A DNA stretch of 64,000 bases from Saccoglossus kowalevskii. Lineage: Eukaryota; Hemichordata; Enteropneusta; Harrimaniidae. The position numbers and the translations under genes are program-made. The stretch lies in assembly GCF_000003605.2 (NCBI RefSeq), contig NW_003141825.1, positions 83,492 through 147,491 of the forward strand, written 5' to 3'. The notes beneath the pieces were generated by a model. That model did not search any database and was not told the DNA's origin. It saw nothing but the letters and a program-made list of their open reading frames with translations. Shown piece by piece: positions 4,852-64,000 of the stretch; the first letter of the stretch is position 1, and each line of letters begins with the position of its first letter.

Positions 4852-7800
4852 ATGTACAACGACGCAAAGACGTTTCCGAATTTGTTTGCAGTTTGTATGA
4901 GTTTTCTCTTTTTCACTTGGCCATCGCACACTGTGTTTGCCGAAGGTAAGTGACTATTTTAACCCTTTAATCGTAACAAAGTAAACATATTCTTGAAATA
5001 TCGTTGAATTTAGCAACTTAGTTATTAACGGTTTATTTTGTTTCCCGACTACGTTACGTAAAAATACATTCATTTAAGACGTCTCGCCATCGACGCATGT
5101 GACTATCATTTTTTTCTAATTCAGCTTCGATAACCCAATATATTTTACCCGATAGATACTTACATATACGTAAAAATTGTTTATAAAATACATCTCGACA
5201 GAACTTTATGAATTCTTTTAAATAAATTCTTTCTAATTCGATTACTCGACTTCTGTATCGAACTGTCTTTTTCGGAGGACGCGATTGCTTGATACATAAA
5301 GTACGTTTGTTTGAGACGTCTGGGGTAATATCATATCTTATTCGGTTTATTTACCAGAATAACACTATTTACGCATGATTTGCGTGTGTTTGAGAAATTA
5401 AAATCGCTGCCAAGCCACAATCAACGCATGTGAATTAAATTTATTGACGTGACTTACTTTACATTTAAAAAACACTATTTCCTTGCTCGTCTGTGAATAT
5501 ATACAATCAAGAAATTACATGAACATGAAATGTGATACGGATGTAAATGACCGGAATACGTTCCGTGTACATCTTGGACGAGTTATTTGGAAGAGTGTTT
5601 CCCCCTCAACACAGGGCAACACGTGATATTTCCTGATGGCAACTGAAAAAAAAAAACCGTAAAATATTGAAGACATTCCCTCTCAATACTCATAACTACA
5701 AACTGCAACCGATTCCACAATAGAACAGTAAAGAGTGGAATAAATTATACTAATATTCGCGTATAATAGTTAGCTTAGACAGCGAATCAAGTGTTTTCAT
5801 AGTCGATATGAGTATTCATTGGTATGGCGAGCGTATACCGTACTATTAATTACAGTCAACGTACTTGAACAGATCCGACAACTATCAGACCTAAGAGGTA
5901 CATATACAGTTTTATAGGGCGCACAGCCACAACTTAAGTGATGTCATGACATGCAGTACATTTTATGTTGTTATGAAATACATTCGCAGTTGTATGCAGT
6001 GTAATTAAATGCAAGTCATCTTTTATGTTATGCTGTATATTTGTCGTGCTATGCTGTTCATTTTTTGTAAGTTTATGTATCATTTTTGTCAATATTTCTG
6101 TGATAATGAGGAAATAATTGATCTAAACAAACTAGTGGGTAGGACAGATGCCTATTTCATTCGTCTCAGCGGGGTTTGAAACGACAATAACTCATCATCG
6201 AATTATCTGTTACCGGGTTCCTCGCCGCCAGTACAACCAGACTGCTGAGACTCCTCCTCCTCCTTCTCAATTGATTCAACTGCATGTTCAGTGATGTGTG
6301 TGTTTCTTGTAGTATGCCGCGTTATCGCCAACTACGTTCTTCTCATAACAGTAACTAACCACATCAAAAGTTTATATATTGTTATGAAACACATTCGCAG
6401 TTTTATGCAATGTATGTGTAATTGAATGCAAGTTATCTTTCATGATATGCTGTATATTTGTCGTGCTATGCTGTGCATATTTTTTTTTGTAAGTTTATGT
6501 ATCATTTTTGTCAAGTTATGTAATGCATTTGTCTTTTTATGCAATATATCTGTCATTTTATGCTGCGCATCCAAGTCGTCTGCGTCAATAATTCTGTGAT
6601 AGTGAGGAAATAATTGATCTAAACAAACTAGTGGGTAGGACAGATGCTTATTTCATTCGTCTCATCGAACTATCTGTTACCGGGTTCCTCGCCGCCAGTA
6701 CAACCAGACTGATGAGACCACGAACTCCTCCTTCTCAATTGATTCAACTGCATGTTCAGTGATGTGTGCGTTCCTTGTAGTACGCCGTGTTATCGCCAAC
6801 TACGTTCTTCTCATAACAATAACTAACCACATCAAAAGTTCATACCGGTACAATCAGATAAGCTGACTCGACTATACTGTACCGTTAACAATTAAACTCA
6901 CAAATGATCTCATCATTCCTGAGTGTTGAGGGAACCCTGTCATAGCTGTGCACCACAGCCTTATCCAATGCAGATAGAAAGACATATTGCCAATTACGTC
7001 AGAAACCACATTTTTACAGCATATTTTGAATTTAATTTAATTTTCAAGGCCGAATGCTGTACTGTACATCGAACTGAATCGTCGCTACCTTATCACTAAC
7101 TATTCTAACTAATATATTGATTTCTCAATTTATGACAAAAATGTCGACTAGACCGTATTTTAGTTTACAGGTAGGTTTTGCCGCAACAACATTCATCATA
7201 CGTATTGTCAATGAATTACAAATTAAAAAAAACATCAACACATTTTTGGTTGTTGCAAAGAGCCACCGACCATCGCACCTTCTTGGCACAAGGTAGTATA
7301 TAACATGAATGCTAGTACATGGCAAATGTAGCTGATAACAAGTTCATTATCACTGCATATCATAACGCATGCATCACACAGAATGACAATGTAATGCATA
7401 GCAATGAATGCACTACATAACTGGGAAAGTATGGCATGACAATTGTACTCAGGCTGCACAGAATGGCAAGTGTACTACGAATCCAACACTGAACTCACCT
7501 AATATCACTAGTTACTAGAGCTGATTGATAAGAGTGACGTCGTAAGCTCGTAATTATTTAAAAACCTATGGTGGGTGGATAATAAATGGTGCCGACGGTT
7601 ATTGATAATCGGCAGAAACATTAGCATGCTGTCAATGTTTCAATCGACACTATTACGAGTTGGTGTCATTGCACCATTCTCTCAAGTATTCGTTTCTCTG
7701 CAATAGAAGTGGTAATACAGCACGATTTGTTTTCCCCGCGTTCTGTGATATGCAGTCATGTGTTAAATATACTGCAATAAAATGTATTGCATAACATTAG

Positions 7801-10800
7801 AAATGAACCGTATAAAATCAAATATGCATCGTGTAACATGACAAATGCATTGCACAACTTAACAAACGAACAGTGCATTGCGTGAAATATGCGCTGCGAT
7901 AACGTGTTTATAATACTGCTACTCAAGACTGCTTTCCATATTTTGTGTTTGTTATTTTCAGTGCTCTGCTCTGATACCTGTGAATCTTCTAATGACGGCA
8001 CATGCAACGACGGAGGTCTAGAATGGGAATCCTACCCTGGCTGCTTTTATGGAACAGACTGTACTGATTGCGGAGTTAGAACGTGGCCCCACGCACACGA
8101 CGGAGGTAAATCTCGTACATTATTCGCATCATGAATGGTATGATTATTTCACAATTTACTTATTAAGTCTGTTTTGGATGACTGTGTTCCCTTATTTACA
8201 GAGGATATATGTGACGATAGCTGCGACGACTGGAGCGGCACTGCTGAAGCATACAACGATATATGCGAGGATGGAGGCGTTGATGCTGAAAACGCAGGTT
8301 GTGCATTGGGTACGGATTGTCAAGACTGTGGTACGAGAATTGGTAAGTAGTGAAGCAAACCATTTTCGATTCCCGACTAGTTATGTTGTAGATTTCTGTT
8401 GGCGTAAAAGTAGCTGCTGTTTTTTTGGGCTAGGTGTACTCAATATAAAACGTAGTGTAATATCTGACAATAAAAGCTTCAGACCAGCCCCGCAAAAATT
8501 CTTTAGACATCGGCAACCACAGGCACATTATTCGGCATGGTGTTCTGAATGTCTTATGCTAATAAAAATTTATGAGGTTATTTCTATTGTAAGCCAGGTT
8601 GTACTTACCCAGTCGTATAGATATTGCGTCTAGCGTATCATCTCATAATCAGGCCGAAGCATTGTATCGCATTTGTTTTATATTTAGATTTACGCACGAT
8701 GGTATAACACATCTAGGACTTTTCAATGATTTCTTCCATGCCTCATTGGTGGTTGCATAGTTACCTCGTCAGGTACCGCTCTACTACCGCTCTCGCTGCG
8801 TCAACGATTTTCACAGCATTCGTATTTGTTATGGGTCTCACGCAACGTTCACAGCGAGTGTGAGATACAATGTACCTTGTTTATTTACAGCATGGAATTA
8901 TAGTTCCATGTTTACAGGAAATTCGAACACGCGTTCTGTAACAGTATGCTCGAGGCTCGAAGTCGATGCTCTGCGCCACAGGAATGCGCCGGCGCATTTC
9001 CCAAAATAAGCATTGTACGCCGCCTAGTTGTGCCAACATTCTGCGCCATATTCTGCGCCCCTCATTCTGCGCCATCGAGAAAATTCATACTGTGCCCCAT
9101 TCTGGGTTCAAAATGATTGATTTTCAATCCTGTTTATCAACGCAATCGGGATGGTTTTATGTGAAATACTGTTATAACATCTGTAGGGGCATCGAAAAGT
9201 ACAAACTTATTGGAAAGTGACAAATCATTCTGCTCTCATTATTTGCGTACAAACTATTTTTGTAATCAATGACGCGATCTAGGTCTACTGTGACGAAGTT
9301 TAAACAATGTTTCCATTCTTGATCTACAGTCCTTTTTTATCGTTGAGTTGAGCTGTCATTCTGCGCCATCGAAAAGCACTGTAATGTTGTTTTATATGAC
9401 GCAATCTAGGTCTACCATTACGTAGTTGAAACAATGTTTCACTTCATTGTACTCATTCCAAGGGCCACTTCTTTTGTATTTCTCCACGGGATTTTACGAA
9501 GTTCCGATGCCAACAAAATCCAACTCCACCACACTTGAGTGTCTTTGCACTGTCTAGTATTTTCCAAAAACAGACGTGATCATAGCTTCACACACACAAC
9601 TGTAATTCGCACGACTTCATACTCATAGCTACGCGATGAGTGCAACCCAACAAAACGAGCAAAATTAAAATCTCAAGATGGTAAATGTAATTGCTTTGTC
9701 AGTTATTGATGTTGGTTTGCTTGTGGAGCTACAAACAAAATTGTAGCTCCCCGGTTTGCTACAATAAACATTGTTTTGACACATTCCCGACGCATCCTGA
9801 CTTCAAGTAGCCGAAACTACTACCCACTTACGTTCACTTCATAGCGAGAGTATTATTTGCGTTCAAAAAATGATTTCTTTATTTATTACTCCAAACATTT
9901 CAAATGCCGAAGTCGAAATAACATCGAATGTCGTGTAAGTTGGTTAATTTTGCAGCGCAACCTGACTAGTACCTACAAAAATAAAGAAACCAAGTTCAAA
10001 TTTATTTTGTGCGTACAAGTTTCAATGACAATGCAATGTTTATTCACCACCTCTGATTTATTTATTTACCACTAGCAATGTCGATATTTGCATCTCTTTT
10101 GTTCGAATGACTGCGAACAATTCGAATAATAAACAGTATACACAACGAACCACATAATTGCGTGAAATTAGTTTAGAACGGTCGGTACGTTTGATTGATT
10201 ATGCGTTTGTACTGCCAGGCACTTGGTGCCGTCGATTGCGAGTTGGCCGGTATAACTGTAACAACAAACTGGCTACATTTAAAAAAATAATCAGCGACGA
10301 AAAGGCGGAGGTTAATGAGACAAACCATTTTACTCAAAGGAGTGGTAACTGTGATCTCATTTGTGTCGAACAAACCCGGAATGTAACACGTTCGTATAAA
10401 AACAAGATTTGGATGGTAACAACATTTCATGCGAAACATCCAGATTGGGTCGATAAACAGGCTTGAAAATCATTGCCGTCTATGAGTCTATGATTTTACA
10501 TTTTTAAAACGCTTGAACTGGGACACAGTATGAATTTGCTCGGTGACTCAGAATACACGGCGCAGAATGTTGGCGCAACTAGGCGGCGTACAATGCTTAT
10601 TTTGGGAAATGCGCCGGCGCATGCCGGTGGCGCAGAGTATCGATTTCAAGCCTCACACATACCTCGACAGTGCCAAACATTCCACTATATATACTTTGCC
10701 TGTACGACTTTCTGAAATACGTGATGTGAATGTATCACCAGAGTTATCAAAAATCACACACTACATATACTGGCTTATGTATTGAACGCAATCAATAGTT

Positions 10801-12135
10801 CTACTTGTATAATAGTAGTGATAATATCAGGTTTATAGTATGAGGCGTACTCAGACAGTACGCCGTGGCATCGACCGATGCGCAGCGGATACTGCCGCTG
10901 TACTGTCTTCGTGCATACTCATAATAACCTTATTATTATACATCTTTGCCTTCCAAGGATACATCATGGGAATGCCGAAATCCAAAAAGCTCAGAACAGA
11001 ATCAGCTAACTTCTTTGTGTGAAGTCTGGCCAAATCCTGGTGGCAGCCATGTTTGTTTTTATTATTAGAGGATGCTTACGCGCGTAATCATTCCATATTT
11101 AGAATTCGCATTTCCTTATATGGTAGGAGAAAAATTTCCCGTACAATACCGCACAATTACGGTACGCTGTATCTTATGGCGTTATAGTGACAGATGTATA
11201 ATACTCATGATATTTTCTCATCTAAAACATTATATTTCTGTGTGTCTGTTCTGTATAAGACAAAAACTGTACAGGTCTCAACGCCAAATCTCGTAGTTTG
11301 TTCGCGTGTTGTATGTTTCAATTTAGTATGTTTTTTTCATTGGCTAAATATTAATATATGCATTTTTCGCGCTTTATCCCTTCTTTTATCTCAAGCTCCA
11401 ATCACTACTAAGTCACCGACAGAAGCACCACAAACGACACTTTTCTCAGGTGATGATGCACCGACTCAGTCCGGTGGTGGTGGTGGTGCTGGTGACGGCG
11501 GTGGAGGGAATGATGATGGAACTACGACTGTATCGGAAAACAGCTCAGGTCTGTAAAATCAGCNNNNNNNNNNNNNNNNNNNNNNNNNNNNNNNNNNNNN
11601 NNNNNNNNNNNNNNNNNNNNNNNNNNNNNNNNNNNNNNNNNNNNNNNNNNNNNNNNNNNNNNNNNNNNNNNNNNNNNNNNNNNNNNNNNNNNNNNNNNNN
11701 NCTCGAGACTTGAATAAATGAAAGTTCCGTGCCCCATTGGTGGTTGTATTGTTTCATACATACTTCGATTCTCAATAATATTTTCTAGGCTCAGATGTGG
11801 TGGTTCCAGTAGCTAGCAGCTTGTCCTGTCTCGCTGGGCTGAGTGCGTTGTCAGTGTTTGCTTATTTGTACTACCGATACCGGAAGAGAAAACCAGTTAA
11901 ACCAAATGAAAATAAGGTAAAACAAATAAATATACTACGTGCTTATGAGATGATATGGCAGTTGAGGTTTTTTAGATGACCTCACTAATATTTACAATAA
12001 AAAATTATTGTATTGGGACCTACCAATACATGACCTGGTTCTAGAGTATCATTCGTATTTTCTTCTAATGAATATGTATTTTCTTTTCCCTCAATTGTAA
12101 ACCAGTCATCATCATCACCAGGAAATGCTGTTTAG
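4852..12135 (+). CDS. Gene A: type I membrane protein, two six-Cys modules
   Basis: Six exons read in one frame to 229 aa: 4852-4945, 7962-8105, 8202-8342, 11396-11548, 11789-11916, 12106-12135. Exon 1 encodes a signal peptide (hydrophobic LFAVCMSFLFF, likely cut after VFA). Exons 2 and 3 each encode one six-Cys module. Exon 4 is a Thr/Pro then Gly-rich stalk. Exon 5 holds the membrane helix followed by YYRYRKRKPVK, a basic stop-transfer. Exon 6 ends SSSSPGNAV. Introns 1-4 are phase 1 and the last is phase 0; no joined codon makes a stop. The weakest joint is the exon 4 donor (GTCTGT), which lies 15 bp before an assembly gap. If the last intron is retained, the tail is instead a short VKQINIL-type sequence. 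The architecture suggests a cell-surface receptor or ligand. No named family is recognised, and the function is unknown. Confidence 0.8.
5968..6842. repeat. Tandem duplication (about 411-bp unit) in gene A intron 1
   Basis: Unit 1 is about 5968-6378 and unit 2 about 6379-6842. Shared landmarks, in the same order, include GTTATGAAA.ACATTCGCAG, GTCGTGCTATGCTGT, AACTAGTGGGTAGGACAG and CCGGGTTCCTCGCCGCC. Unit 2 carries an extra roughly 60 bp. No coding frame is kept, so it is a plain intronic duplication. Confidence 0.8.
7962..8105 (+). CDS. Gene A exon 2: Cys module 1
   Basis: This 144-nt exon is phase 1 at both ends. Cysteine spacing is 3-7-12-5-2, with core CNDGG and YGTDCTDCGVR, then a linker TWPHAHDG. 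It matches gene B exon 2 in length and linker (TWPYAHDG), so these are probably corresponding modules. Confidence 0.85.
8202..8342 (+). CDS. Gene A exon 3: Cys module 2
   Basis: This 141-nt exon is phase 1 at both ends. Cysteine spacing is 3-13-11-5-2; the loop between the second and third Cys is longer than in module 1, as it is in gene B module 2. The core reads CEDGG and LGTDCQDCGTR. Confidence 0.85.
8952..10660. mobile_element. Foldback-like element with about 100-bp inverted repeats in gene A intron 3
   Basis: The sequence at about 8952-9050 (GATGCTCTGCGCCACAGGAA... to ACATTCTGCGCC) is the reverse complement, with few mismatches, of about 10558-10655. The repeats are rich in GCGCC and include ATGCGCCGGCGCAT, a palindrome. 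The 1.5-kb interior has further direct repeats (TCATTCTGCGCCATCGA at about 9062 and 9357; GACGC.ATCTAGGTCTAC) and no recognisable transposase. Confidence 0.65.
10832..11115 (+). repeat. Dispersed repeat, copy 1 (gene A intron 3)
   Basis: Homologous in inverted orientation to about 47389-47665. Shared segments include TACTGTCTTCGTGCATACT, GTGGCAGCCATGTTTG and TTACGCGCGTAATCATTCC. No coding content is evident, so it is a short interspersed element or MITE copy. Confidence 0.65.
11564..11701. other. Assembly gap (138 N)
   Basis: Run of N in gene A intron 4, immediately after exon 4. The exon 4 donor cannot be fully judged because of it. Confidence 0.98.
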
Positions 12136-13264
12136 AAGAGTAACTGAAAAACGGTAAGGCTAATCCGATATATGATAAATTGATGTGACTGAGATAAGGT
12201 GATCAATTGGTGTGACTGGGATAGAGTAATCAATTGATGTGCCTGAGATAGGGTTCACATCAAGGTAAACGCTTATTCTCTGTCAAGGCCCGCGTCTCGA
12301 ATGACTATTCATCTATTTATAGCCTGGTTCATTCTACAAATACCGTAGGTAATAATGATTCATATTGAAAGAGAGCACAGTATCAATTCTACCATCGTCT
12401 CAGTGATCAATAATCGATAGAATAGTACAACAACAAACCTCAGAAGCTGTACAGAAACTTAATTAGATACCACATATGAACGGTATCCCGGACGCTTGGC
12501 TGGTATAAGTAGGACATAACAATGTTCTACAAAATAGAGACATAGATTTCTATTGGTTTTTAAATAAAAATGTACCACATTATTTGATACAATGTGAAAA
12601 TTTATAGCACCCTCATTTTTAATATGTCTGAACAAGCTACGCACTTTAGTCTAGGAAATTCAAAGATACGATGTCTTCTTGTTCCCTTCGAACGCCTCGA
12701 TGCTTTTGGTGTGTTTCATTCAGATGGTTTAGTTTTTATGCATTTTCTCAAAGTCAGTCTTTCAAAACGTACCTAGTTTTTGGTTTTTGCGAACATTCGA
12801 ACGTCGAAATATTAACATACACCTTTCTCGCCAAATTCAGAATGCACGTGCATATCTCTCGATCAGACAAGTGCCCTCAAAATGGCATACACTCAACAAG
12901 CTCGACAGAATCAGAATGCAGGCTTTCAACAACCCAGCAAAACTCGTATTGTTTTCTTTTTAATTTCTAGACAACACGCCAGTGGTACCAATGATGTGAC
13001 GAGTCTTCCCAGTGATTATTGAAAACACCGACCATAAGTAGTGTGACCCGCAGTGTAATTCTGACAATGTATATACAACGTTAATGGTAGATCTGCTTGA
13101 CTTTTCACGGATGAAATGAAAGCACCTGCATTATCGAAGAACTAAATCGACGCACGGATGCACCACGTCGACATGCGCCGAAATGTAGAAGAGTGAAATA
13201 GTTTTATTGAGAACAATCTAAGGAGATGCTGAATTGCTCTAGTTACGAACACCGAGTTACAAAA
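12136..13264. other. 3' flank of gene A
   Basis: Presumed 3' UTR and flank. AATAAA at 12563 is a possible poly(A) signal. A short imperfect direct repeat TTGATGTGACTGAGATA..G occurs three times at about 12181-12252. Confidence 0.4.
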
Positions 13265-13679
13265 ATGGCCACGCCCATATTTTAGAAAGCCCGCCCACTT
13301 TGGGCAAACCACGCCTGAATTGTAACACGATGTTCAATTTCCAGTTAACGGAAGTTAGACTTACGGGCAACATATATTATTGTTTTTGTTGAACGTCCAC
13401 ATTTAGTAACACTAACTTTAATTAACAATTAATCGAGTTACGGAGAATTTACATTTGGCGTTCTTTTAAACGATCAAACTTAAATTTTAAATTAACTGGA
13501 AACATACCATGTTAAACAAACTAAAAAAAGCTATGCTGCCCGTGGACGTTGGACAAAAAACAAAAATATAGGTGGCCCGTTACTGGCCCGTTTTGTTAAC
13601 ATGCTAATGAATATCGACTTACAATTTAGGCGTGGTTTCTCAAAGTGGGCGGGCTTTATAAAATAGGGGCGTGGCCGTG
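13264..13679. mobile_element. MITE-like element with about 65-bp terminal inverted repeats
   Basis: The left end ATGGCCACGCCC...CCCGCCCACTTTGGG...CACGCCTGAATTGTAA is mirrored at 13623-13679 by TTACAATTTAGGCGTGG...AAGTGGGCGGGCTTT...GGGGCGTGGCCGT. The interior is AT-rich with no reading frame, and total length is about 415 bp. The superfamily is not assigned. Confidence 0.7.
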
Positions 13680-23229: not shown

Positions 23230-23246
23230 CCATTTTAAGTGGATTC

Positions 23247-45900: not shown

Positions 45901-48900
45901 GTGTGTCATTTGCTCGTTTGCAACACGTTCGATTTCGTGCGTTTGCGCATATCACTCTCGAAATCATTCTGCGTATATTAATTTGGCTTTCATTACTCAG
46001 TATTATAGCTGAATTAAAAGGATTTCACACTTCTCGTGATTATTGCGTTTTAATATGTCTAGCTACGGGATATTGGCTTCAATAATAGGCTCAATCGCGT
46101 CTCGCCCACCATTTGCCACATCTAAATTTCATACTTATCGTGATTATTGCGTTTTATTATGTCTAGCTACGGGATGTTGGCTTCAATAATTGGCTCAATC
46201 GCGTCTCGCCCACCATTTTCCACATCAAAATTCTTACACTATAACGATATTGTATAATGTCGCCTTTTATTCCCTAAATGCAGCTAGTAGAAATGTACAC
46301 CGGCATTTAAAATAAACGGTGATACTCATATGAAATGGTCAATTATGTTTTTATTAAAAGGAAGTATTTGTTTTGGTTTGCTACATATATAATAATTAGC
46401 ACAGTGACATAAGTTGTAGTAATTTAGGATACCGCTAAACTGCGCATTTGGACCGCTTGCATTTGCTACCTTGATGAGAATGTGGATATGAATTTTCAGT
46501 ACGGCTAATGCATTAAAAGCAGTCAGAATCTGGAGGAGTAGAATGTGTATTTGTGTGCACCCTCTCATTTAGTTTACAGTTGCACAAGAATTAAATCTAT
46601 AATTAACAGTATTTGTGCTGCTATCACCTCTGAGTCAGTGCGAGAGTTCGGTAGCCTTGTCACATACCCGCTTTTGTACTATTTGATTTGATTTCCAATG
46701 TGGGTGGATACATTCTTGCAAAGGCGACCTTCTAGACCGACTTCTTCTAGTTATTGGTAATTCAACATTGGGAATGCACTGCAAATAGTTGCTTACCAAT
46801 TAATGAACTTAATTTGCTATAAGTTGATGCATGGTGACAACTAGCTTCAGCGTTTTGATTTGTGTCAATGCCGCCCTCTTTCTATTGTCTAGTTGTTGAA
46901 CTGTGAATTATAATGAATCTGTTGGCGCATTTCCAGGGATGTTCTATTATATCGTATCGTACGACCACGATTCAATTGACCGTCTTTCTAAAGAACGTAA
47001 TGTGATTACCCGGCAACTTTTCTCTACAATCTAAATCAGTCAGTGTCCCCACCCTCGGCGTAACAGTGATTTTGTTTTCCCTTGAAAATACATTCGCACC
47101 GTATCATCCGGGGCCGGGGGCTTCTGTTTAACATGATTTGACAGTTCACTGTTCACTATTTACGAGATTGGTAAGTTCGTTCATCTACATGAACTCTTAG
47201 AGCAGTGTTCGCTGTCTCACTATGTAAATTTCAGTTGTCATAGTTTGCTAAGAAACAAACTGGTGTTAAAGAAACACTGGAATTTACTAATAATAGGTAT
47301 TATTACACATATGTCACCGTAACGCCATAAGTCACAGCTTGACGTAATTTTGCGGTTTTACACTGGGTATTTTCAAACTACCATATTAGGAAATGCGAAT
47401 TCCAAATATGGAATGATTACGCGCGTAAGCGTCCAATAGTAATAAAAACAAACATGGCTGCCACCAGAGTTTAACTGGACTCCACACAAAGAAGTTCGCT
47501 AATCTGAGTGTTCGAAACGTTTTGGTTTTCGGCATTTCCATGATGTATCCTGCAAAGTGTGCACTCAGACAGTATGCGGTCGCATCGACCTCCGCTGCGC
47601 GTTTGTGGATACCTGTTGTACTGTCTTCGTGCATACTTTTCAGTATCCTCGTAATAACCTCATACTAGTATTCCACACAGTTTCTGTAAATTGCGCCCTG
47701 TAGTGACTTCAAAATGACGTTTGAATGTATAACTGTGTTTAGCTATGTGTTAGTAGTTCGTCATCTAGAACATAGTAAAATATCTACAAAATACGATCTT
47801 CATTAATATTGTTAGACTGTTGTCGATTAGAACGCGTTGAACGGTTTTTGTGCAATCCATTTGCGTCATAGAGTCTGTGGTGATATTGAAGGAGAATGAA
47901 AAGGACGGAGAAAGTAAAAAATATAAATCTATGCGTGATCGCGTGCGACTTGGCTTTTTTTTACTTTTAACAAAAATACATTAATATGTAAAAACAAATA
48001 TGATCTGGGGAGTTAGTACGAAGTTTGAAGATGCAATGGTACCAGAAATAATCTGCCTGTAACTTTTATCGAGTGAACCATTTAGCTATCGGGTATGTGC
48101 CAAAGTTGAGGCTGTCTGTGGAACAGTGCAAAACAAATTTGGTATATGTTGAAAATTGATGTTCCGTTTATGTTTCCCACTAATAGTTGACAATTATTCA
48201 CCAAGATAGAATGGTCTTTCTCAGTTACTTTTAAACTTAGTACATTTTGTAAAATGCATGCGTATTACCCGGGCCTATTTCCCTCTCGATCGGATAGAAT
48301 ATTTCTTTATGTACTATTTTTGCTTCTCTCATGCTAAAGTATGATTGCTATCAATATATATTATAGATTTGTGTACAGATAACTGCGTGTTCGCTTACGA
48401 CGGAGACTGTGAAGACGGAGGTCCTGACGCTTTTGAAGGCTTGTGTGAGTACGGTGATGACTGTGACGACTGTGGACCACGTCCAGAGAATCCCGGGTGT
48501 AAGTATTTACAATTTCCCATAGCGCTGCGTGGTGATAGTAATCGTAATTACAAATGTCTAGAAGCTCGAGTTTTTGAGATAGTCACATAAGATTCAAAAT
48601 ATTACCGAACACTACCGTGCATTACAACATTTTCAGTAAACCTGCCGGTAATATTTACTTATTTTTTCCGCAGTTTCGTGCTGGAATACGTGCCACAACT
48701 CCGATGACGGATTTTGTGATGACGGTGGAGACGACGCTGATTACTCTGAATGTTCATATGCAACGGACTGCCTTGATTGTGGACCCCGTCTGGACGCTGG
48801 GACAGGTAAACAAAGAACAAAAATGAAATATGAAACTTAACATTTATAAGTGTCGATTGAACGTCCCCATCAGCGTGTCGATAAACCAAGTATGATCGTG

Positions 48901-51898
48901 AGACTTTGACAAATCTACAAATAATAGACTAGGCATTCGGTGTGAAGTGTGTGTGGACAGCCCTTTTCTATGGTTAGACCACACATGCGTGTTTTTATGG
49001 TGCTGTACTGAAGTCAAAAACCAAATAGGCATCGCTACGTAACACGTGTACATGTATATTAATTTTATAAACACATTCGCGCTCTCTAACGCCACAGTGC
49101 TTCAATCCTGTGATTTAAATAGACCACTTTCCCGGAAGTAGCGAGACTGGGGTGCAAAAATACACCTGCTTTGTCATCGAATACAATCATGTCAGTTTGT
49201 TGATAGTCGATAGAAGGGAATATTATTTTTGTGACGTCGATTGGTATACCCAGAAGCACAATATCACGCGAAATGTTCGACTTCCGGGAAAGTCGTCTAT
49301 GGGTCAACACTCGTTCGAAGTTCGTATTGCTCGGTAGTTTTATCCGTGACCCGTAAATTTAATAAATGCTTTTTCATATATAATGATTTGCTATATTTTT
49401 AAACGAACGAATATACAAACAAAGTTTAAACGACAATCCTAACGCCAAGTTTCGCTATTCAAGTTTTTAGAACACTTTCCCTGAATGCGCATGCGCGCGC
49501 ATAACGGATATGGATACTATGGAATACCTGGAATTACTTATTGATGAAAAGACATTTTGGGTATTTTATATGGAATTTATTTTCACTTATTTTTGACAAG
49601 TTGAATGTGAAATATGGGGAAAAAAGTTATATTCGCTGGATTATATTTTCACAGAATCATAGCGAAAATCACAACTCTATTAAAGCGAAAATAAAGTGGT
49701 TTACAGTATACGTAAACGTGTACGCTTGATATTGTGCTTGTAAATGTGCGAATCAACGTGACAAAAATAGATCTTTTGTACCACCACCACTGACATGATC
49801 GTATATGAAAAAGGCAAACGTATTGCTTGCACTCCAGTCTCGCTGCTACAGGGAAAGTGGCATTGTGTCAACACAGGTGGCGCTATTCAGCAGGAAAGTG
49901 GTACAATGTACATAATTCACTGAAGCGAATTGTCGCTAGAGGGCGCTACGAACATACACCCATGTAAACAATTTTAATAAATTACATTCATTTATCTCCA
50001 GAAATGTGTTTTAATACATGCGAGTATAGCAATGATGGCGAATGCGATGATGGAGGTGTTGGTGCCGCCTACTCAGGTTGTTACTATGGAACAGATTGTT
50101 TAGATTGTGGAATTCGAAATCACGTATTTGACCGTAAGTCTGAATGCTTTCTATCTTCGGGGCGGAGCTACGTCACAAGACGTTCCACATTGCTAAGACG
50201 CGCACCACTGTACCACGTATTTCTAGGGGCTCTGAGCACGCTGCCGAGGAACGCAGAACGAAGTGAAGAGCCGGTGAAAATTCAAGAAAACAACTGGAAC
50301 TCAATTTTGAAGTAATCCTGAACAATGAAATTTATATGAGTTACACACGCAGGGGTAATTCTTTTCAGAGGAGTCTCAACAACCATCCCAAAGTACCGAT
50401 TTCTAAGTGTTTTCGGCCTTTGTTTTCACCGGGATGCTTGCCATGCGGTGAGAATGCCCGGATGTCCTCTCAAGATATCAATAAATCGCGTCTTCCAGCG
50501 ACGAAGCGTTAGTGTGATGTCACAGGACTAGCGCAACAGAGAGACTACTTACTGATGCCATATGCGACCCTGGTATGCGAAACAGGTCACCTTGGCGTCA
50601 TAGAAGAGCTAGAAGACGCGATTTTTGAAAAAAGGTGTATTGACACTTTCGCACTGCCATTCTGATCGTTAGAGTTCATGTACAAATGGTGCAAGTATTT
50701 CACGGGCTGCGAGCGGGGAACATAGTTATAAATACTTTACTTCCCTTTTTAAAAGAGCAATTTCACATAATTAATTAAGCTAATATGCCATTCACTCACA
50801 GCACCGTTATGTGACGATTCATGCAGTGGGGCAAATGACAGCTCTTGTGAAGATGGTGGTCTATTCAGTACAAATTACGAGTGTTATTTGGGAACTGACT
50901 GCACTGATTGCGGAATACGAGGAGGTAAGACAATATAGATACAATAGACAATATAGACAATATTGGCAGTGTGCCAATATATCAATAACTAGAATCACGG
51001 TAACCGTCTGAAAAAAATAAATCACGTATACAATGTTAATACAGTCTCCTAGAATGCCTTTTATCTTCTTAGGCAAAAGCACGTTTCAAAAAAGGTTTCA
51101 GTGACGAATTAACACAGTACTGACATATCTGTAATATGTTATCTTACAGTGCTGCCCTCTGTAGTCGCCCTACCACCAGGAAACAGTACGCCATCTACGC
51201 CAACTACTTTACCCGGAGTAACTAATGTCGCCAACGATGAGAGCACCGATGCATCTCCAAAGCAGTCATTGATAACATTAGAACTCACAACAGAACCGCC
51301 ACTAGCAAGTCAAGGTAAACAGACCTTCGCCCAGCATTGTACTTTAATCTAAACTAATAATAAGAACAAAACAAAAGGCAATTTCGTATTTACCGAATTG
51401 TGGCGTGTGTTAATATACCTATGCATGGACAATGAAACTGATTGAATCGAACCAAACAGTATGTGATGATGATATGAATAAGAGAATGTGCGTGGTTCCA
51501 ACATCATTGCATACCACATCTGTATTAAGTTTTACCTAAAATAATGAAAGCAAAACAAAAGGCAATTTCTCGTTTCGTGAATGGTGGCGTGTTATCATAC
51601 ATCTCTGACCCGAAAAGGAAGATGATCAAGTCAATCTCTATGTGTTGATGATATACATGGGAATTTTAAAATATAGCATTTACAAATATCGTTTGCATTA
51701 CTGTATTTGTACTTACTTCCCTATTTGTTCTTAGATACAGATATACACATGATCATCGGACTGGTTGTTGGGAGTTTACTCGGATTGTTGGTCACGGCAG
51801 CAGGCATTGTGCTCTTCATTCTCAAAAAGAAGGAGAAGAAATCTGACAATAAAGTCCAAGCTATACAAACACTTGTCATTGAAGATTTGGAAAATTAG
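39941..51898 (+). CDS. Gene D: type I membrane protein, four six-Cys modules
   Basis: Seven exons give 307 aa: 39941-40016, 48367-48498, 48674-48805, 50002-50133, 50802-50924, 51150-51314, 51735-51898. Exon 1 encodes a signal peptide (YVCLIFVLSSSIPGIRA) with the right phase, but it lies 8.35 kb upstream and is unrelated to E's exon 1, so it is the weakest part. Exons 2-5 are four modules. Exon 6 is a Thr/Pro/Ser stalk with an NST site. Exon 7 holds the helix (MIIGLVVGSLLGLLVTAAGI), then KKKEKKSDNK and a C-terminus ending IEDLEN, with no further intron. An AATAAA at 52065 is conserved in position downstream of gene E. Unlike A-C, the SDNK codons run straight into coding sequence. Exons 2-7 are close paralogues of gene E. 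Confidence 0.75.
40017..41919. other. First part of gene D intron 1, repeats only
   Basis: Contains an imperfect tandem duplication of about 115 bp (CTGTCCGGTCGAA...AGTCACAT..GACGATTCTTTC at about 41537 and 41653). No exons seen. Confidence 0.45.
41920..46760. repeat. Old tandem duplication, unit about 1.96 kb, in gene D intron 1
   Basis: Landmarks recur in order at about 1960-bp offset: TCAATTGCGCAAGG (41928, 43861), AACGTACTTGCTCTACTTTG (42394, 44353), GTTGCCATGACATCATAACA (42449, 44412), GCGATGTTGATTTGAGTT (42799, 44763). The end of the unit (TTTGTGCTGCTATCA at 43440) recurs at 46612 after about 1.3 kb of inserted DNA in copy 2. Copies are well diverged and non-coding. Confidence 0.75.
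46032..46235. repeat. Tandem pair of about 104 bp
   Basis: CGTGATTATTGCGTTTTA...GTCTAGCTACGGGAT.TTGGCTTCAATAA..GGCTCAATCGCGTCTCGCCCACC appears twice in direct orientation with few differences, so the duplication is fairly recent. Confidence 0.85.
47389..47665 (-). repeat. Dispersed repeat, copy 2 (inverted relative to 10.83 kb)
   Basis: Reverse-complement homologue of 10832-11115. Both copies lie in introns of the gene cluster (A intron 3 and D intron 1). Divergence is moderate with small indels. Confidence 0.65.
47666..48366. other. End of gene D intron 1
   Basis: Homology to gene E begins only at about 48328 (TTTGCTTCTCTCATG), 40 bp before exon 2. The duplication breakpoint therefore lies here, and E's signal-peptide exon has no copy upstream of D. 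Confidence 0.6.
48367..48498 (+). CDS. Gene D exon 2: Cys module 1 (membrane-distal)
   Basis: Cysteine spacing is 3-7-11-5-2, with core CEDGG and YGDDCDDCGPR. This is the fastest-changing module against gene E: ten codons differ, seven changing the residue, all inside the two loops between the second and fourth Cys. Confidence 0.85.
48674..48805 (+). CDS. Gene D exon 3: Cys module 2
   Basis: Cysteine spacing is 3-7-12-5-2, with core CDDGG and YATDCLDCGPR. The only residue change against gene E is the penultimate residue of the linker (Thr versus Pro). Confidence 0.88.
49118..49303. mobile_element. Short MITE-like inverted repeat in gene D intron 3
   Basis: ATAGACCACTTTCCCGGAAG on the left is mirrored by ACTTCCGGGAAAGTCGTCTAT on the right around a roughly 140-bp AT-rich centre. 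No copy is seen in the corresponding intron of gene E, so the insertion probably followed the duplication. Confidence 0.6.
49875..49948. promoter_or_regulatory. Two CTCF-like motifs in gene D intron 3
   Basis: AGGTGGCGCTA at 49875 and AGAGGGCGCTA at 49938 both match the core of known animal CTCF motifs. Binding is inferred from motif only. Confidence 0.3.
50002..50133 (+). CDS. Gene D exon 4: Cys module 3
   Basis: Cysteine spacing is 3-7-11-5-2, with core CDDGG and YGTDCLDCGIR. One residue differs from gene E (Ser/Asn before NDGEC). Two CTCF-like motifs lie within 130 bp upstream. Confidence 0.88.
50486..50626. repeat. Small inverted repeat in gene D intron 4
   Basis: AAATCGCGTCTTC and GAAGACGCGATTT face each other about 110 bp apart. 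Possibly a small MITE or fragment of one. Confidence 0.35.
50802..50924 (+). CDS. Gene D exon 5: Cys module 4 (membrane-proximal)
   Basis: This is the shortest module exon (123 nt), with spacing 3-7-11-5-2 and core CEDGG and LGTDCTDCGIR. All 123 nt are identical to gene E exon 5 by eye. Confidence 0.88.
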
Positions 51899-54705: not shown

Positions 54706-57700
54706 ATGGCAATATCACTATTAGCAACGTCTATCGCTATCGTCATTATGGTGATAGTTTTTGTCCAAGGAGTACAGCTAGCCGGTAAGTAACAGAATCA
54801 ATTGTTAAAGTCAATAACAAGCTTCCGCCATGTCATAACATTAGAAGTTGGCGCGTACGTTCTTGCTGGAACGTAATCTTGACTGGGTCGTTTTTTTATT
54901 ATGCCAAAATTTAATAAAATGCTGTAAATAACAACACAGAAATACAATTCACAACGCCACTGTAGTTGTGCGACCAATTGTGTGATGGTTTTACGATTGC
55001 GCGACGGTAAGCTGAGTACACGTGTTGATCAGCAAACTTTAGTTTCCTAGTATGGTATATGTGCTCCCCGGTTTAATTACATCTAATACGTATTTATATG
55101 TACTAAAGACAATAATTCCGGAACATTTATACCCGCATTGCATTGGAGTCATTAGATTTGAAATATGTTGCAACGTGGTGGTTTATTTATGTCCCCGACT
55201 ATGTACTTAGACAAGTTTTTACCAAAACAGAATGTTCGCTCTCAGTCATTGAAACACGCCATGCGTTTGCAATTGTGATAATCAACTGTTTCCCTCATGG
55301 TGGAATATTGCCTCGGGTATTATATTTGCTTCTCTCATGGCTAAAGTATCATTGCTGTCATAATTCTAGATTTGTGTACAGATAACTGCGTATTTGCCCA
55401 TAACGCCGACTGTGAAGACGGAGGTTCTGACGCTATTGGAAACTTGTGTGAGTACGGTGATGACTGTGACGACTGTGGACCACGTCCAGAGAATCCCGGG
55501 TGTAAGTATTTACAATTTCCCATAGCGCTGCGTGGTGATAGTAACTATAATTACAAATCTCTAGACGCTCGAGTTTTTGAGATAGTCACATAAGATTCAA
55601 AATATTACCGAACACTACCGTGCATTACAACGTTTTCAGTCAAGCTACCGGTAATATTTACTTATTTTTTTTCCACAGTTTCGTGCTGGAATACGTGCCA
55701 CAACTCCGATGACGGATTTTGTGATGACGGTGGAGACGACGCTGATTACTCCGAATGTTCATATGCTACGGACTGCCTTGATTGTGGACCCCGTCTGGAC
55801 GCTGGACCAGGTAATTATAAACAAGGCAGCAATTCAACATCATCGACATCGAAACATGGGTTTATCCCAGACACGATATCAAAAGGACTCGATCATTATA
55901 AATAAAACACCCAGCAAAAGTCGACATTTCAAATCAACAAAACTCGTGACAGTGACGAAGTAAGTGTCGCTGAAACAGCTTTGTAAGTCTCGCTAAAAAT
56001 CAATTGGTAACAAACAACTTCAGCTAAATTGTATCTGTTCGCTGTAACTTCAAATTCCGTATGTTTTCCTACCGTTGTGAGACGATCATCGCGTGTTAAT
56101 ACAGAATAAAGCGGTCATGATGAATTGTACAGCGAACATCATGCTACCTTCTAAAGCAAATGGAATCGTCCGTTTCAGCATCATGCATCAAGTGTCGGCA
56201 TTGCAAAATGGACGATTCTGTAGGGGTCAGCGTTAAATTGGAGGGACAACACTTCTCCCTACTGCGAATACGCGCTCGCGATAGTTGAATCGAATTGAGG
56301 TTAGTGTGACTTATTCAAAGATTAGTGTGCGAGAATTATGTATTGAGTTGCTTCTTTTAGCGAGACTTATTACCAGTTGCTGATTTAGCGAAACTTACGG
56401 TGAACCCGCGTCGGCGACACTTACTACTAGTTGCCGATTTAGCGCAACTCCATGGCGGCCTTAACGACAAACGTTATACTTTGCAAAAAATTGGTGTTTG
56501 TAAGTGTCAGCTTTTCCGTGTATTTTCTATGAGTTTAACAGTGAAGTGTATAGGTCCCCCACGGCTTTCTATATCACCGCTACGTGACACGTGTACATTT
56601 GTTCGCTAGACTGACCCAGTCGTGGCAATTTTATTGTTTCATGTGATAATTCCTGTTAAACGAGCTTGTAGAGTCTTCCGAGTTGACGCGAAATTATCAC
56701 AACTGGCCATGGTCTAATCTGCCGCGACCTCTATAGTTATCACACGTTTTTGTGGTGATAAATAAGGTAATGAGTTGCATGACTTCGGGGGGGGGTGCAG
56801 GACAGAATTGGTTGAAATATTCGTCTCATTTGCATAAGTTAATATTCATGAGCAATGAAAAATTCGTCTTTTTAGTAAAATTGTGCCAAAATGCTTTCCG
56901 ATAGCACACATGATAGCTCTAATTTGACTGATTCTATCGCTACGAGCTGAGAAAATAACCGAAAAACGGATGTAAGAGTATTTTTTGAGACATATTTTTT
57001 ACCAGACTCCAGCAAACTGTTGAAAGTAACCACAGGCTTTTTCTTTACCATGACCATAGCAAGTTACGAAATAATCCGCCTGACACTTAGCGCAGGCATA
57101 CTTCCCTCATTTGTTCCACTTCCGGGTTCCATAACGTCACTGCATATCATGAATAAGTAATAGCAATGGACATGCTGCAGAATCGACCAGTGAGTCGTAG
57201 TAATTTCGTCGTTCCACGATTTAAGAAAACAAATATAGGGGCAGACGTACATACTGACCGTTCAAAAAAACACAGACGCCATCTAGAGGCAAAGCGGTTC
57301 CGTGAGGTTAACTGAATGGGTCGCAAACACGCTAACAAATAACATTTTCTTCCCTCCAGAAATGTGCTTTAATACATGCGAATATAACAATGATGGGGAA
57401 TGCGATGATGGAGGTGTTGGCGCCGCCTACTCAGGTTGTTACTATGGAACAGATTGTTTAGATTGTGGAATTCGAAATCACGTATTTGACCGTAAGTCTG
57501 AATGTTTTCTATATCAATACCACACAATACACCATCGCAAAAAGTCACGCCCCTAGCGACGAAGCGATTCTATGACGACACAGCGTTACCATAACAGGGG
57601 GTTTCCTGACTGCTGCCTCCAATCTCCGGCGCAGAGTTTTATTTCTACGAATATATCTCCGCCACCGCACGATCTTATGCTTGTCGTTGTTTGTTCGATG

Positions 57701-59740
57701 CGTCACAGATGCCCGCCTTCGCGATGTTTGTAGATTCTGTCTCCTCATTAATTCCTCGAGAATTGAGTCCCAAACGATGATAACAACACACGCCAAACAC
57801 GCAAAGGCTATTGGGTATATACTTGTTTGTAAACAATGACGCGCTATGGCCATCTGACGCATGCGCAGGTGACGACTCTCCTGCTTTAATTTCGATTTTC
57901 CGTAGCACAAATAGGTTGCCAACAGAACGAGTTAATGTTTTGTTTGTTTATATTTCCTCGCCTGGGAATCGACAAGAGTCGTTAGCTTGATGGGCCGAGT
58001 AATACCTTAGTGACCGTTATTCCGCGATGAAGTACCTTTCTTTTGTAAATTATAACTATTTTACCCCTTACAGTATGTTTATAAAAAAATCATTATAAGC
58101 TTATCAATGAAATAGTTTTAAACGTGTTTACCAGTAAGAAGGAATCAACATGAGACCCCCCCCCCCCCATAACAAGAACATACCAAGAATACGCGTGATA
58201 AAAGTGGCAGAGATACTTTCGATGTTCTAGCCGCAGGGAACTCTGGGAATGAGAATGTACTGCCCTTTGTCACGTACAAAGTAACTGTGATGGCGCTGAT
58301 GTGGCACTACCGGCCGTTATATTGTCCGGCTTTCCTCTTGACGCTGTCGAAGTGCGTCCTCGCAGTTTAAAAAAACGATAGTACAATATACTAGTAGTTG
58401 TACACTTTTTGCTAAAGCTAATATGCCATTATCTTACAGCACCGTTATGTGACGATTCATGCAGTGGGGCAAATGACAGCTCTTGTGAAGATGGTGGTCT
58501 ATTCAGTACAAATTACGAGTGTTATTTGGGAACTGACTGCACTGATTGCGGAATACGAGGAGGTAAGACAGTATGACATAGCGGCGTGTCAATAATTCCC
58601 ATCATTTGCCAGAATCAGTAGCCATCTGAGTAAAAAAATATCTTCAGATAAACAAATAAGTAAACTAATCTACATGCACACTATGAATGCGGTCTTCTTG
58701 ATTGTCATTGCCATGATGAATATATAGATTTATTTCGCACTTTGCGCCTTTAGCCTAAATGTACACTGCTTATGAATTGCTTAAATAATCACATCTGATA
58801 ACTGAGGATACAGACATGTGTCAAAGGAGTGAGTTTACTCCTGATTTTCATTCATAAGTAATAAAATAAATTTTCATTCAAATGCCGGAGAAAGGTGCAA
58901 TTAAGGAAAGAGGTGAATTTCTGAAACCTTCATGCAACAGTCGGACATATCGACAGGAAATGAAATTCGTCTTCGATCTATAATATATGTGGAAGCAAAG
59001 TCAGCGTTAGATTTCGAATGCAAATTGTCAATGCATTAAACCCAGATTCATTCTATTATAGTGAATTACGTCACCATGAATATGTTGCCACAGTAGTTTA
59101 AAAGACAAATTAACCCACTACTGACGTATATGTAATGTGTTACCTTACAGTGCTGCCCTCTATATTAGCACAACCCATAGGAATTAGTACGCAATCTACG
59201 CCAACTTCTTCGCCAACTAATTTATCTGGAGTAACAGAAATCACCAACGATGATGAGAGCACCGATGCATCTCCAAAACTATCATTGATAATATTAGAAC
59301 TCACAACAGAACCGTCATTGACGAGCTCAGGTAAACAGACCATCGCCCACCATTGCTTTTTAATCTAAACTTTGGAACAAACAAAAGGCAATTCGTGTTT
59401 ACCGAATGGTGGCGTGTGATAATACACCTATGCACAGACAATGACACTAATTGAATCGAACAGTATGTGTTGATGATATAAATAAGAGAATATGTGTGGT
59501 TCAAATGACACAGTCATTCTAGAATAATAATGGCATTTGTATTATTTTATAAATTTACTCCCCTATTTCTTCCTAGGTACGGATATATACATGATTATCG
59601 GACTGGTTGTTGGGAGTTTAGTCGGAGTGATGGTCGTGACTGCAGGCGTCCTACTCTTCACCCTCAAAAAGAAGCAGACGAGATCTGACAATAAAGTCCA
59701 AGCTATACGAACCATGGTGATCGAAGACGTAGAAAATTAG
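54706..59740 (+). CDS. Gene E: type I membrane protein, four six-Cys modules
   Basis: Seven exons give 313 aa: 54706-54784, 55370-55501, 55679-55810, 57360-57491, 58440-58562, 59151-59330, 59577-59740. The signal peptide is MAISLLATSIAIVIMVIVF..., with exon 1 ending in phase 1. Four modules follow, then a stalk five codons longer than D's and largely re-written, then the helix (MIIGLVVGSLVGVMVVTAGV), KKKQTRSDNK and a C-terminus ending IEDVEN. An AATAAA is at 59817. This is the best-supported gene model of the window, because the whole exon set lies within 5 kb and matches D exon by exon. The intron between modules 3 and 4 carries a transposon fragment absent from D, so that insertion followed the duplication. 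The molecular role is unknown. Confidence 0.85.
55370..55501 (+). CDS. Gene E exon 2: Cys module 1
   Basis: The module differs from D in residues such as Tyr/His, Gly/Ala, Pro/Ser, Phe/Ile and Gly/Asn in the loops, while the C-terminal half from LCEYGDDC onward is unchanged. Before the third Cys it has NADC instead of DGDC, so the usual DG is lost. Confidence 0.87.
55679..55810 (+). CDS. Gene E exon 3: Cys module 2
   Basis: Spacing is 3-7-12-5-2, matching D except for the last linker residues (GPG versus GTG). The acceptor is TTCCACAG and the donor GTAATT. Confidence 0.88.
55811..57359. other. Gene E intron 3
   Basis: No exon. Contains repeated AGCGA.ACTTA...TTGC(C/T)GATTTAGCG motifs at about 56355-56450 and a CGCCATCTAGAGGC motif near 57278. 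Confidence 0.45.
57360..57491 (+). CDS. Gene E exon 4: Cys module 3
   Basis: Spacing is 3-7-11-5-2. The exon opens with EMCFNTC and ends RNHVFD before the donor GTAAGT. It is almost identical to D exon 4. Confidence 0.88.
57540..57890 (-). mobile_element. DNA transposon end with coding-like frame, parent of the 16.67-kb MITE
   Basis: On the minus strand the terminus TTAAAGCAGGAGAGTCGTCA leads into CATTGTTTACAAACAAG and TTGGGACTCAATT, shared with the MITE, and then continues where the MITE stops. The open minus frame contains an Arg-rich stretch (IVRWRRYIRRNKTLRRRLEA) that would suit the start of a PIF/Harbinger-like transposase (inference). The frame ends at 57545. The insertion is absent from gene D. 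Confidence 0.45.
58440..58562 (+). CDS. Gene E exon 5: Cys module 4
   Basis: This 123-nt exon is identical to gene D exon 5. The identity continues a few bases into the intron (GTAAGACA) and then decays. Confidence 0.88.
58563..59150. other. Gene E intron 5
   Basis: No feature recognised. Similarity to the D counterpart returns only just before exon 6 (GTAATGTGTTACCTTACAG type). Confidence 0.5.
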
Positions 59741-59816: not shown

Positions 59817-59822
59817 AATAAA
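59817..59822 (+). terminator. Poly(A) signal AATAAA of gene E
   Basis: AATAAA lies 77 bp after the stop and is followed by TTCCGCTGGA as in gene D, despite divergence of the surrounding 3' UTR. Confidence 0.55.
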
Positions 59823-61086: not shown

Positions 61087-61185
61087 CCGTTGCTAAGCCA
61101 CGGGCATATGCTTATTTGTGACACTATTTAACGTCCCATAAGCAGCGCGATAACTTATCTGGATGTGCCAGTGAACGGTAAGACC

Positions 61186-62208: not shown

Positions 62209-62308
62209 CATTGGAAAACCAAGCAGAACGGAACGGCTTGAGCAAGCATCTATGTATCACATATAGAAAACATTGAACAATGTCCCGTGAGAGTGATTCA
62301 ATGGGCTA

Positions 62309-62683
62309 TTGTCAGAAAATTATGTTTCTCTAACCTTTTCACCGATGGAATCGTGTTTCCCACAGTCTTATGTTTTTGATAATTGTGATATCAATCATGG
62401 CACATGCAATATACTCAAGGATTTCCAAAATCATATGAAAAAAAGTGTAACTTCGCCATGCTTGCCGGTACCCGTGTCGCATTTACAGACACTGGTGGAC
62501 AATTTACCCAATTTTATTCGGAGGATTACCATTTCAATGAACAGTAGAGTGAATCAAAACTATATTCATTGCATACAGTTGCGTTGTCCAATGCTACACG
62601 AAGTTCAATGCTTTGGTTTTACAGCTCTTCCACCTGACAATAAGAGGATTGGCGATTCGCTTCAGATCAAGCCCACCGTGTGA
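62309..62683 (+). CDS. Hypothetical ORF upstream of gene F
   Basis: 124 codons open from ATG with mixed composition, six Cys and no low complexity. No domain, signal peptide or membrane segment is recognised. It sits where the E-unit flank (about 53850-54540) has different sequence, between two tracts that do align, so it is either inserted in one unit or lost from the other. It could be an exon, a retrocopy fragment or chance. Confidence 0.25.
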   Translation: MSENYVSLTFSPMESCFPQSYVFDNCDINHGTCNILKDFQNHMKKSVTSPCLPVPVSHLQTLVDNLPNFIRRITISMNSRVNQNYIHCIQLRCPMLHEVQCFGFTALPPDNKRIGDSLQIKPTV

Positions 62684-62843
62684 CCTGTTACCCGTCAGGT
62701 TAATAAAACGGGTGTCTTATTCATACTCGATCATACCATCGAAGAGGGAGGTGTTTCAGTATACGGGAAGAATCAAATACGTATTCAATTTCAAACATCG
62801 GTACTGATCTACCTAAAAGTGTGATGTGTACACGACAGTTGTC

Positions 62844-62922
62844 ATGGCAATATCACTATTAGCAACGTCTATCGCTATCGTCATTATGGTGATAGTTTTT
62901 GTCCAAGGAGTACAGCTAGCCG
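62844..62922 (+). CDS. Gene F, first exon only (signal peptide); gene runs off the window
   Basis: This 79-nt exon is identical by eye to gene E exon 1, including ATG, phase-1 end and the donor GTAAGT. The following roughly 80 bp of intron are also close to E's. No module exon occurs before the window end. Sequence at about 63811-63870 matches E intron 1 at about 54960-55015, so intron 1 of F has gained roughly 700 bp and exon 2 should lie just past position 64000. Whether F is intact cannot be judged. Confidence 0.6.
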
Positions 62923-64000
62923 GTAAGTAACAGAACCAATTGTTAAAGTCAATAACAAGCTTCCGCCATGTCATGAAATTGGAAGTTGGTGAGTACGTCG
63001 TTGTTGGAATGTAACGTTGGGACTTACTGCATGACTGGATCGTTTTTATTAAACAAATATGTACTATAATTATAAAGCCGATTCGCTGTGGGACGCAAAC
63101 AATCATTTTGTTACCAGTTGCCATGACAATGTTAGGACAGGATTTTTTGAATTTTTTCTGACATACCTAGAGTGTTAGGCGTGACCAGCCTATCAAGTCG
63201 GGACTATCACAGGCCAAAACGATAACAGATAATTGAATGCGTACAGGCATATAGGCAAGCCTGGCAATACTTACATTGGACCGACTTCAGAAAATTACTT
63301 AATGAACTTGCTTGTTAGACCTGAACATGATGGACTTGGATGTTCAACTCCAATACTCCAAGTAAAATGAAATGTTTTATAGACTTTAACATATGAACCA
63401 TTGATAAACTAAGTGTTTTGTTCTTGGGTATAATGCATAGTGTCGGCCCAGTGGACGCACTGGCATCGACTCAAAAACAAAATAGTAACTTTGAGCACAC
63501 ATTCAAACACAACTGAATGAGATTTGGACACGGCCACGACCACGAATTCAGGTTTATGGGCGTTGCCATGGCAACGGCAGAACAGGATGTTTTCACCAAT
63601 CTACAGGCGTGACCTGGCTGTCAAGTTTGGTAGGTTAGCCAAAAGAAATTACATATATATTAATATTAAAACGCCGTTTCTGACGAAAAAGTTGCATTTA
63701 GAGATACCTTTGGCGCGAAGGCAAATCAAGCAATGAACAAATCATTCCATTACCACTGTTTAGCTAGGAGTAGAATCTGTATAGAACAATGCAAAGAGTT
63801 CCACAACAATACTGTGTAGTTGTACGATTGTGATGATTTTACAATTTGGTGTGTAAGTTGTGGCGATCTGATGTGTGAGTAGATGAGAAGGGATCTGTTT
63901 TTAAACTGTCCTATTGTCACAGTGTTAACTGGGCCTCCACATGGGTAAAAAACGAAGTGCGAAGTACCCGTTTTAAAAGGTGTAAAAATCGAAGTGATGC
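62923..64000. other. Gene F intron 1 (partial)
   Basis: Contains diverged direct repeats (GTTGCCATG.CAA.G..AGAACAGGAT-like, GCGTGACC.GC..TCAAGT) at about 63115-63210 and 63555-63635. These bound the extra DNA relative to gene E. No exon seen. Confidence 0.45.

Follow-up and report, generated by a model that had tools for sequence, protein, structure and literature searches.

A tandem cluster of predicted module-built surface proteins in the acorn worm Saccoglossus kowalevskii, and a six-cysteine module common to bacterial proteins

The expanded surface-receptor clusters of invertebrates, such as the SRCR or FREP clusters, are tandem and modular, and their members are single-pass or secreted proteins. 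Among small extracellular modules, LDL-receptor class A is about 40 residues long, Cys-rich, and acidic, and the Notch LNR (PF00066) is small and disulfide-rich, with acidic DGxCD and DC patches. The cluster described here, which is located on contig C3290 of the 572 Mb assembly of Saccoglossus kowalevskii, is likewise tandem and modular, but it is built from a domain different from those of the SRCR and FREP clusters. The whole stretch of C3290 that was analysed, 64,000 nt in length, is referred to as the window.

Predicted genes of the window

Exon chains were rebuilt with GT-AG sites, the splice sites being placed from the sequence and from agreement with paralogues. Four complete module genes (I, II, III, and IV) were obtained, whose predicted proteins are 247, 250, 307, and 313 aa long, respectively. 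Each starts with a signal peptide, which is followed by the module exons, a stalk of low complexity, a single helix, and a tail that is short and basic (43, 22, 24, and 24 residues as cut, respectively), and genes I-IV are predicted to encode type I single-pass membrane proteins. The original prediction had proposed six receptor-like genes, with five full exon sets and one further first exon. All of these exist on the + strand, but only four sets carry modules; the fifth gene (X) is a bystander and the sixth (V) is a first exon only. The proposed layout of signal peptide, modules, stalk, helix, and short tail is retained for I-IV and fails for X, which has no module, and whose tail is not short because its last exon codes for 424 residues. 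The joined frames are open as predicted, every rebuilt CDS being a multiple of three in length and having no internal stop. The features are given below; unless a line says otherwise, module exons were placed by profile and exon rebuild and the other exons by exon rebuild.

4852..4945, + strand, gene I exon 1, signal peptide, phase 1 out
7962..8105, + strand, gene I module 1 exon, phase 1-1
8202..8342, + strand, gene I module 2 exon with a 6-residue insert, phase 1-1
11396..11548, + strand, gene I stalk exon, Ser/Thr/Pro/Gly-rich
11789..11916, + strand, gene I transmembrane exon with YYRYRKRK juxtamembrane, like the minus-strand TM exon of L063
12122..12153, + strand, gene I tail exon a, least certain boundary
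12971..13022, + strand, gene I tail exon b with stop
26776..26893, + strand, gene II exon 1, signal peptide
27296..27439, + strand, gene II module 1 exon, phase 1-1
27524..27661, + strand, gene II module 2 exon with a 5-residue insert, phase 1-1
28121..28327, + strand, gene II stalk exon, Gly/Asn repeats
28622..28743, + strand, gene II transmembrane exon, like TM exons in L048 and L063
30152..30175, + strand, gene II last exon with stop, short and less certain
33201..37582, + strand, gene X, five exons (33201-33261, 33857-33940, 34253-34483, 34724-34899, 36308-37582), signal peptide, TM, long Lys/Ser-rich tail
39941..40016, + strand, gene III exon 1, signal peptide, followed by an 8.3 kb intron
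48367..48498, + strand, gene III module 1 exon
48674..48805, + strand, gene III module 2 exon
50002..50133, + strand, gene III module 3 exon
50802..50924, + strand, gene III module 4 exon
51150..51314, + strand, gene III stalk exon
51735..51898, + strand, gene III TM and short tail exon with stop
54706..54784, + strand, gene IV exon 1, signal peptide
55370..55501, + strand, gene IV module 1 exon
55679..55810, + strand, gene IV module 2 exon
57360..57491, + strand, gene IV module 3 exon
58440..58562, + strand, gene IV module 4 exon, coding bases identical to gene III module 4 over 40 codons
59151..59330, + strand, gene IV stalk exon
59577..59740, + strand, gene IV TM and short tail exon with stop
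62844..62922, + strand, gene V, first exon only, signal peptide, 27 residues identical to gene IV exon 1

The link of gene III exon 1 is the weakest in its chain because of the 8.3 kb intron that comes next, and for this exon, as for the small exons that encode the tails in I and II, the splice links are based on one locus each. Gene V cannot be followed past its first exon because the contig consists of N from the first base beyond the window up to C3290:174605; past this stretch, modules reappear on the contig at 175825 and 177301.

Gene X, which lies between II and III, combines a signal peptide, a short ectodomain, and one helix. The window profile search found no module in it, and the sole genome match of its last exon at E <= 0.001 is the exon itself, i.e., it is single-copy. 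With neither a module nor a Pfam family over the cut-off, gene X was rejected as a module receptor. It also has a dibasic site downstream of a short pro-like segment, a Tyr/Ser-rich ectodomain, and a Lys-rich long tail.

Other features of the window include a 37-base repeat array at 23254-25395, with about 26 and 14 copies flanking a 730-base N gap, an imperfect inverted repeat about 500 bases long at 13222-13715, and reverse-transcriptase-like broken frames at 15187-15920 (+ strand), which by eye are probably a decayed LINE fragment. The mitochondrial contig of the same assembly (17,037 bases) carries COX1 on the strand opposite to most genes, an ND4L that runs into ND4, and a tRNA-Lys with anticodon ttt, and its 12 genes contain 0 AGG, 4 AGA, 46 AAA, and 96 ATA codons, with ATA at isoleucine-like positions by eye. 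An excerpt of a published description of the Saccoglossus kowalevskii mitochondrion gives COX1 as inverted and ND1 or ND2 as moved, AUA as Ile, AAA as Lys, no AGG, and a tRNA-Lys with UUU (PMC3121625), and an excerpt of another reports the overlap of ND4L and ND4 (PMC2697986). The contig agrees with these accounts, and on this basis the genome was assigned to this acorn worm or a close relative.

The six-cysteine module and known families

The building block of the cluster has 38 residues and six Cys, arranged in the order C-x3-C ... C-[DE]-D-G-G ... C-x2-G-T-D-C-x-D-C-G, and module size ranges from 38 to 44 residues. A profile built from the modules found exactly 12 of them in the window, all on the + strand and distributed 2+2+4+4 over genes I, II, III, and IV; the weakest of the 12 has an E-value of 1.3e-15, while the next match reaches only 0.42, and no further module was found in the window by this search. 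A degenerate DNA pattern, which was taken from the window modules themselves, gave 12 matches in the window versus 0 in 100 shuffles, and the count of 12 originally proposed is borne out by both searches. All 12 window module exons are symmetric (phase 1-1), as for an exon-shuffled extracellular module.

Conservation was assessed in a set of 113 aligned modules, consisting of 10 from the window, 53 from elsewhere in the worm genome, and 50 from bacteria, from which two window duplicates, one of the 54 own-genome matches (short), and 12 of the 62 bacterial ones (weak, short, long, or duplicate) were omitted. All six Cys are present in 113/113 modules (63 worm and 50 bacterial), an invariance which is partly by construction because membership of the set depended on how a module scored against the profile and on its length, and because the last two Cys were part of the pattern used to scan bacteria. 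Four Asp/Asn positions are also nearly invariant in this set (n = 113): position 11 is D or N in 111 modules, positions 16 and 31 are D in 112 each, and position 34 is D in 111.

Searches of Pfam, NCBIfam, and the PDB place the module nowhere, which agrees with the earlier view of a cluster of single-pass, module-built proteins outside known families. In Pfam-A, none of the 113 modules exceeded a cut-off, and the best match was to zf-CCCH (E 0.005, 5 members); the zinc-finger matches were judged to be chance. No family over its curated cut-off was found in Pfam-A for genes I, II, III, and X either, the gene II stalk giving a TrAA12 match of 20.8 bits against a cut-off of 30.9. In NCBIfam, no model exceeded its curated cut-off for the 12 window modules (best E 0.11), and none was over the cut-off for 10 bacterial proteins. 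In the PDB, one module searched by phmmer had no relative at E <= 10, and the profile of 113 modules gave no relative, with a best E of 3.2. Exact module strings occurred in no paper text of the literature searched, consistent with the original statement that no described system of this layout was known to its author, and looser strings occurred only in papers on other topics by title. Strings similar to the module may occur in other eukaryotes as well.

Among known modules, LDL-receptor class A (PF00057) is likewise of about 40 residues and Cys-rich, and three copies of it adjoin the module in one bacterial locus (L017), but PF00057 is not among the families matched by any of the 113 modules at E <= 1. 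The module might also be read as a divergent Notch-type LNR, in which case the proteins would regulate signalling by Ca2+-dependent shielding. By eye, the LNRs of the same genome do resemble it in the spacing DGxCD ... DC. However, the 113 modules between them matched seven Pfam families at E <= 1, PF00066 not being one of these, and hhalign, against only five LNR rows, gave a probability of 9% over 18 columns, with an E-value of 0.0036 for that single comparison. Cys count and spacing differ too, the module being without one LNR Cys and having an extra Cys after it. Identity with the Notch LNR was rejected on these profile tests, and we regard the shielding function as very improbable. Placement of the module in a well-characterised receptor family, named at the outset as a refuting outcome, did not result from the Pfam, NCBIfam, and PDB searches.

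Relatives in the worm genome and in bacteria

At least 79 module matches on 17 contigs were found in the worm genome, one of them with a stop; the count is a lower bound because the search misses the two insert-bearing modules of the window. In 20 fetched stretches of this genome 54 modules were found, and the 52 that end in the conserved Arg were used for a paralogue splice test. Donors were scorable for 31 of the 52 (28 in phase 1, 2 in phase 2, 1 in phase 0; 21 had none) and acceptors for 39 (37 in phase 1, 2 in phase 0; 13 had none), and all 22 perfect GTRAGT donors were in phase 1. By hydropathy, a TM-like exon with a short tail lies 3' of the modules in six of seven receptor-type loci (L044, L045, L047, L048, L059, and L062/L063), the exception being L046. 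By tblastn, gene II-like TM exons were found in L048 and, on the minus strand, in L063, the L063 exon also matching gene I; the same search of the 20 stretches gave no relative of the III/IV stalk-TM exons and no convincing relative of the signal-peptide exons.

Secreted forms are also present. In L052, L053, and L054 (3/3), several modules share one open frame, which stops at most two residues past the last of three or four modules, and signal-peptide-like ORFs lie upstream. The module therefore does not need the membrane. Another local module expansion is seen in L050 and L051 (C1549:266001-286000), where eight similar single-module exons of the ICNNDCYYPADGYCDDGGDNS type form an array.

An animal-only design does not hold, since the module is common to bacteria. 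When bacterial and archaeal genomes were scanned, 46 pattern stretches yielded 32 confirmed loci, with 40-68% identity in the best segment, and the window-module profile matches bacterial copies at E-values down to 1.3e-17. All 32 loci come from MAGs by title, and the titles name Myxococcota (or its families), Deltaproteobacteria, Flavobacteriales or Salibacteraceae, Phycisphaerales, Opitutaceae, or plain bacteria; they are mostly Myxococcota and Flavobacteriales, with one Phycisphaerales and one Opitutaceae. Eight of these genomes, which were picked for having matches, were searched whole and contain between 2 and 17 matches apiece. Among 187 genomes sampled from the phylum of one Myxococcota genome, 23 carry the module (two of the 23 known beforehand), and for one Flavobacteriales genome, 12 of the 42 genomes searched from its order are positive (one known beforehand), 11 of these 12 with two matches. 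In the phylum of the Phycisphaerales genome, 1 of 199 is positive, solely that genome itself. Carriage by viruses was rejected, as none of 52 pattern stretches in viral contigs was confirmed at E <= 1e-3.

The bacterial carriers look secreted or surface-anchored, judging from their sequences. They have the same module, with a DGxCDDGG...GTDCxDCGxR core, N-termini that by eye are secreted or lipoprotein-like, and lipobox-like signal peptides (by eye) in many of 17 loci inspected, and a MYXO-CTERM match below its cut-off was found in L043. Up to seven modules occur in one carrier (L022). The carriers are single open frames, often lipoprotein-like, whereas the receptor genes of the worm are split by introns and encode a TM helix and a stalk. 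An animal-looking mix was seen in a Phycisphaerales MAG (L012:2432-5677), where VWA7-like and VWA domains are combined with the module and a hemicentin galactose-binding-like domain.

In Flavobacteriales, two one-module lipoprotein-like genes lie adjacent among bacterial-type genes in 4/4 loci inspected (L021, L035, L037, and L040), and these tiny genes encode a lipobox-like signal peptide, one module, and hardly anything else. In L035, L037, and L040, the pair adjoins an apparent aspartate decarboxylase gene (named by eye). Animal contamination was rejected as the source of the Flavobacteriales matches on account of these paired genes and the two matches in 11 of 12 genomes; it is ruled out with lower certainty for short bacterial contigs. 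As judged by the profile matches, the worm and bacterial proteins have a module family in common.

Divergence, tails, and possible role

The modules of the youngest pair, III/IV, differ with a dN of 0.025 and a dS of 0.127 over 169 codons, and the dN/dS of about 0.2 in this one pair indicates that they are under purifying selection. Module 1 is the most divergent of them (dN 0.082), while module 4 is identical, silent sites included, which together with the low module divergence points to constraint and local gene conversion. Stalk and TM exons of this pair have diverged further than the modules, the stalk exons with a dN of 0.186 and a dS of 0.362, and the TM exons with 0.149 and 0.401, respectively. 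Neither ITAM nor ITIM was found in any of 10 tails (4 window and 6 paralogue), and eight of the 10 have none of the eight motifs tried.

Genes I-IV may encode module-built type I surface proteins, in which disulfide knobs, perhaps Ca2+-bound, are carried on a stalk for extracellular binding, in adhesion or capture; we give this reading a probability of about 0.5. Each predicted module would fold as a disulfide-knit knob, Ca2+ would probably be held by the near-invariant Asp/Asn residues of each knob, and the stalk would keep the knobs off the membrane, so that they could bind an extracellular ligand such as matrix, mucus glycan, or a microbe. The conserved Asp could also be purely structural. 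Because no signalling motif was found in the tails, the role proposed for I-IV is that of receptors for adhesion or capture, or else of the chain that does the binding within a complex. Adhesion or capture is ranked first on the sequence evidence, and an immune repertoire and a matrix/mucus role come next.

An immune-recognition role had been suggested for the cluster, and a rival reading is that of a diversifying innate-immune receptor repertoire whose variable modules recognise microbes. The genes are indeed multiple and arranged in tandem, both two-module and four-module genes occur on the contigs C3290 and C131, the layout is that of surface proteins, and the modules of I and II are strongly different (dN 0.333, dS saturated). 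Nevertheless, we consider such a repertoire unlikely and not supported, because neither ITAM nor ITIM was found in the tails and, as noted above, purifying selection is seen in the modules of the youngest pair. Somewhat less likely still, the ectodomains might be mainly shed or secreted as matrix or mucus components, with the membrane anchor as a delivery step. Acorn worms secrete much mucus, the secreted multi-module paralogues with their upstream signal-peptide-like ORFs fit such a role, and the stalks could be cleaved or O-glycosylated, but the TM-like exon is kept at nearly all receptor-type loci. Pairing with a separate transducing chain, for example a long-tailed one like gene X, would suit the short, motif-free tails of I-IV and the position of X between II and III. 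We hold it to be distinctly improbable, however, as the helices of I-IV are without the charged residue needed in typical adaptor pairing, the X tail exon is single-copy, and position is the sole link of X to I-IV.

Under the adhesion or capture reading, the cluster would have grown by tandem duplication of genes with exchangeable phase-1 exons, accompanied by patchy homogenisation between neighbouring genes. A wider scenario, which we put forward tentatively and think doubtful, is that of an uncatalogued Ca2+-binding surface module spanning bacteria and animals, which was taken up, possibly by transfer from marine bacteria, into an acorn-worm lineage, gained phase-1 introns, a stalk, and TM exons there, and spread to at least 79 copies binding microbes or mucus.

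Modular surface proteins encoded in tandem clusters are known from other systems, but the present cluster is built from a module which has no model in the Pfam and NCBIfam releases scanned and is common to bacteria. A profile of this module would annotate many unnamed proteins in the worm, in Myxococcota, and in Flavobacteriales, and the single-module proteins of Flavobacteriales, an anchor plus one module, offer a minimal system. As far as sequences can tell, this building block may represent a type of extracellular binding module that has been overlooked.
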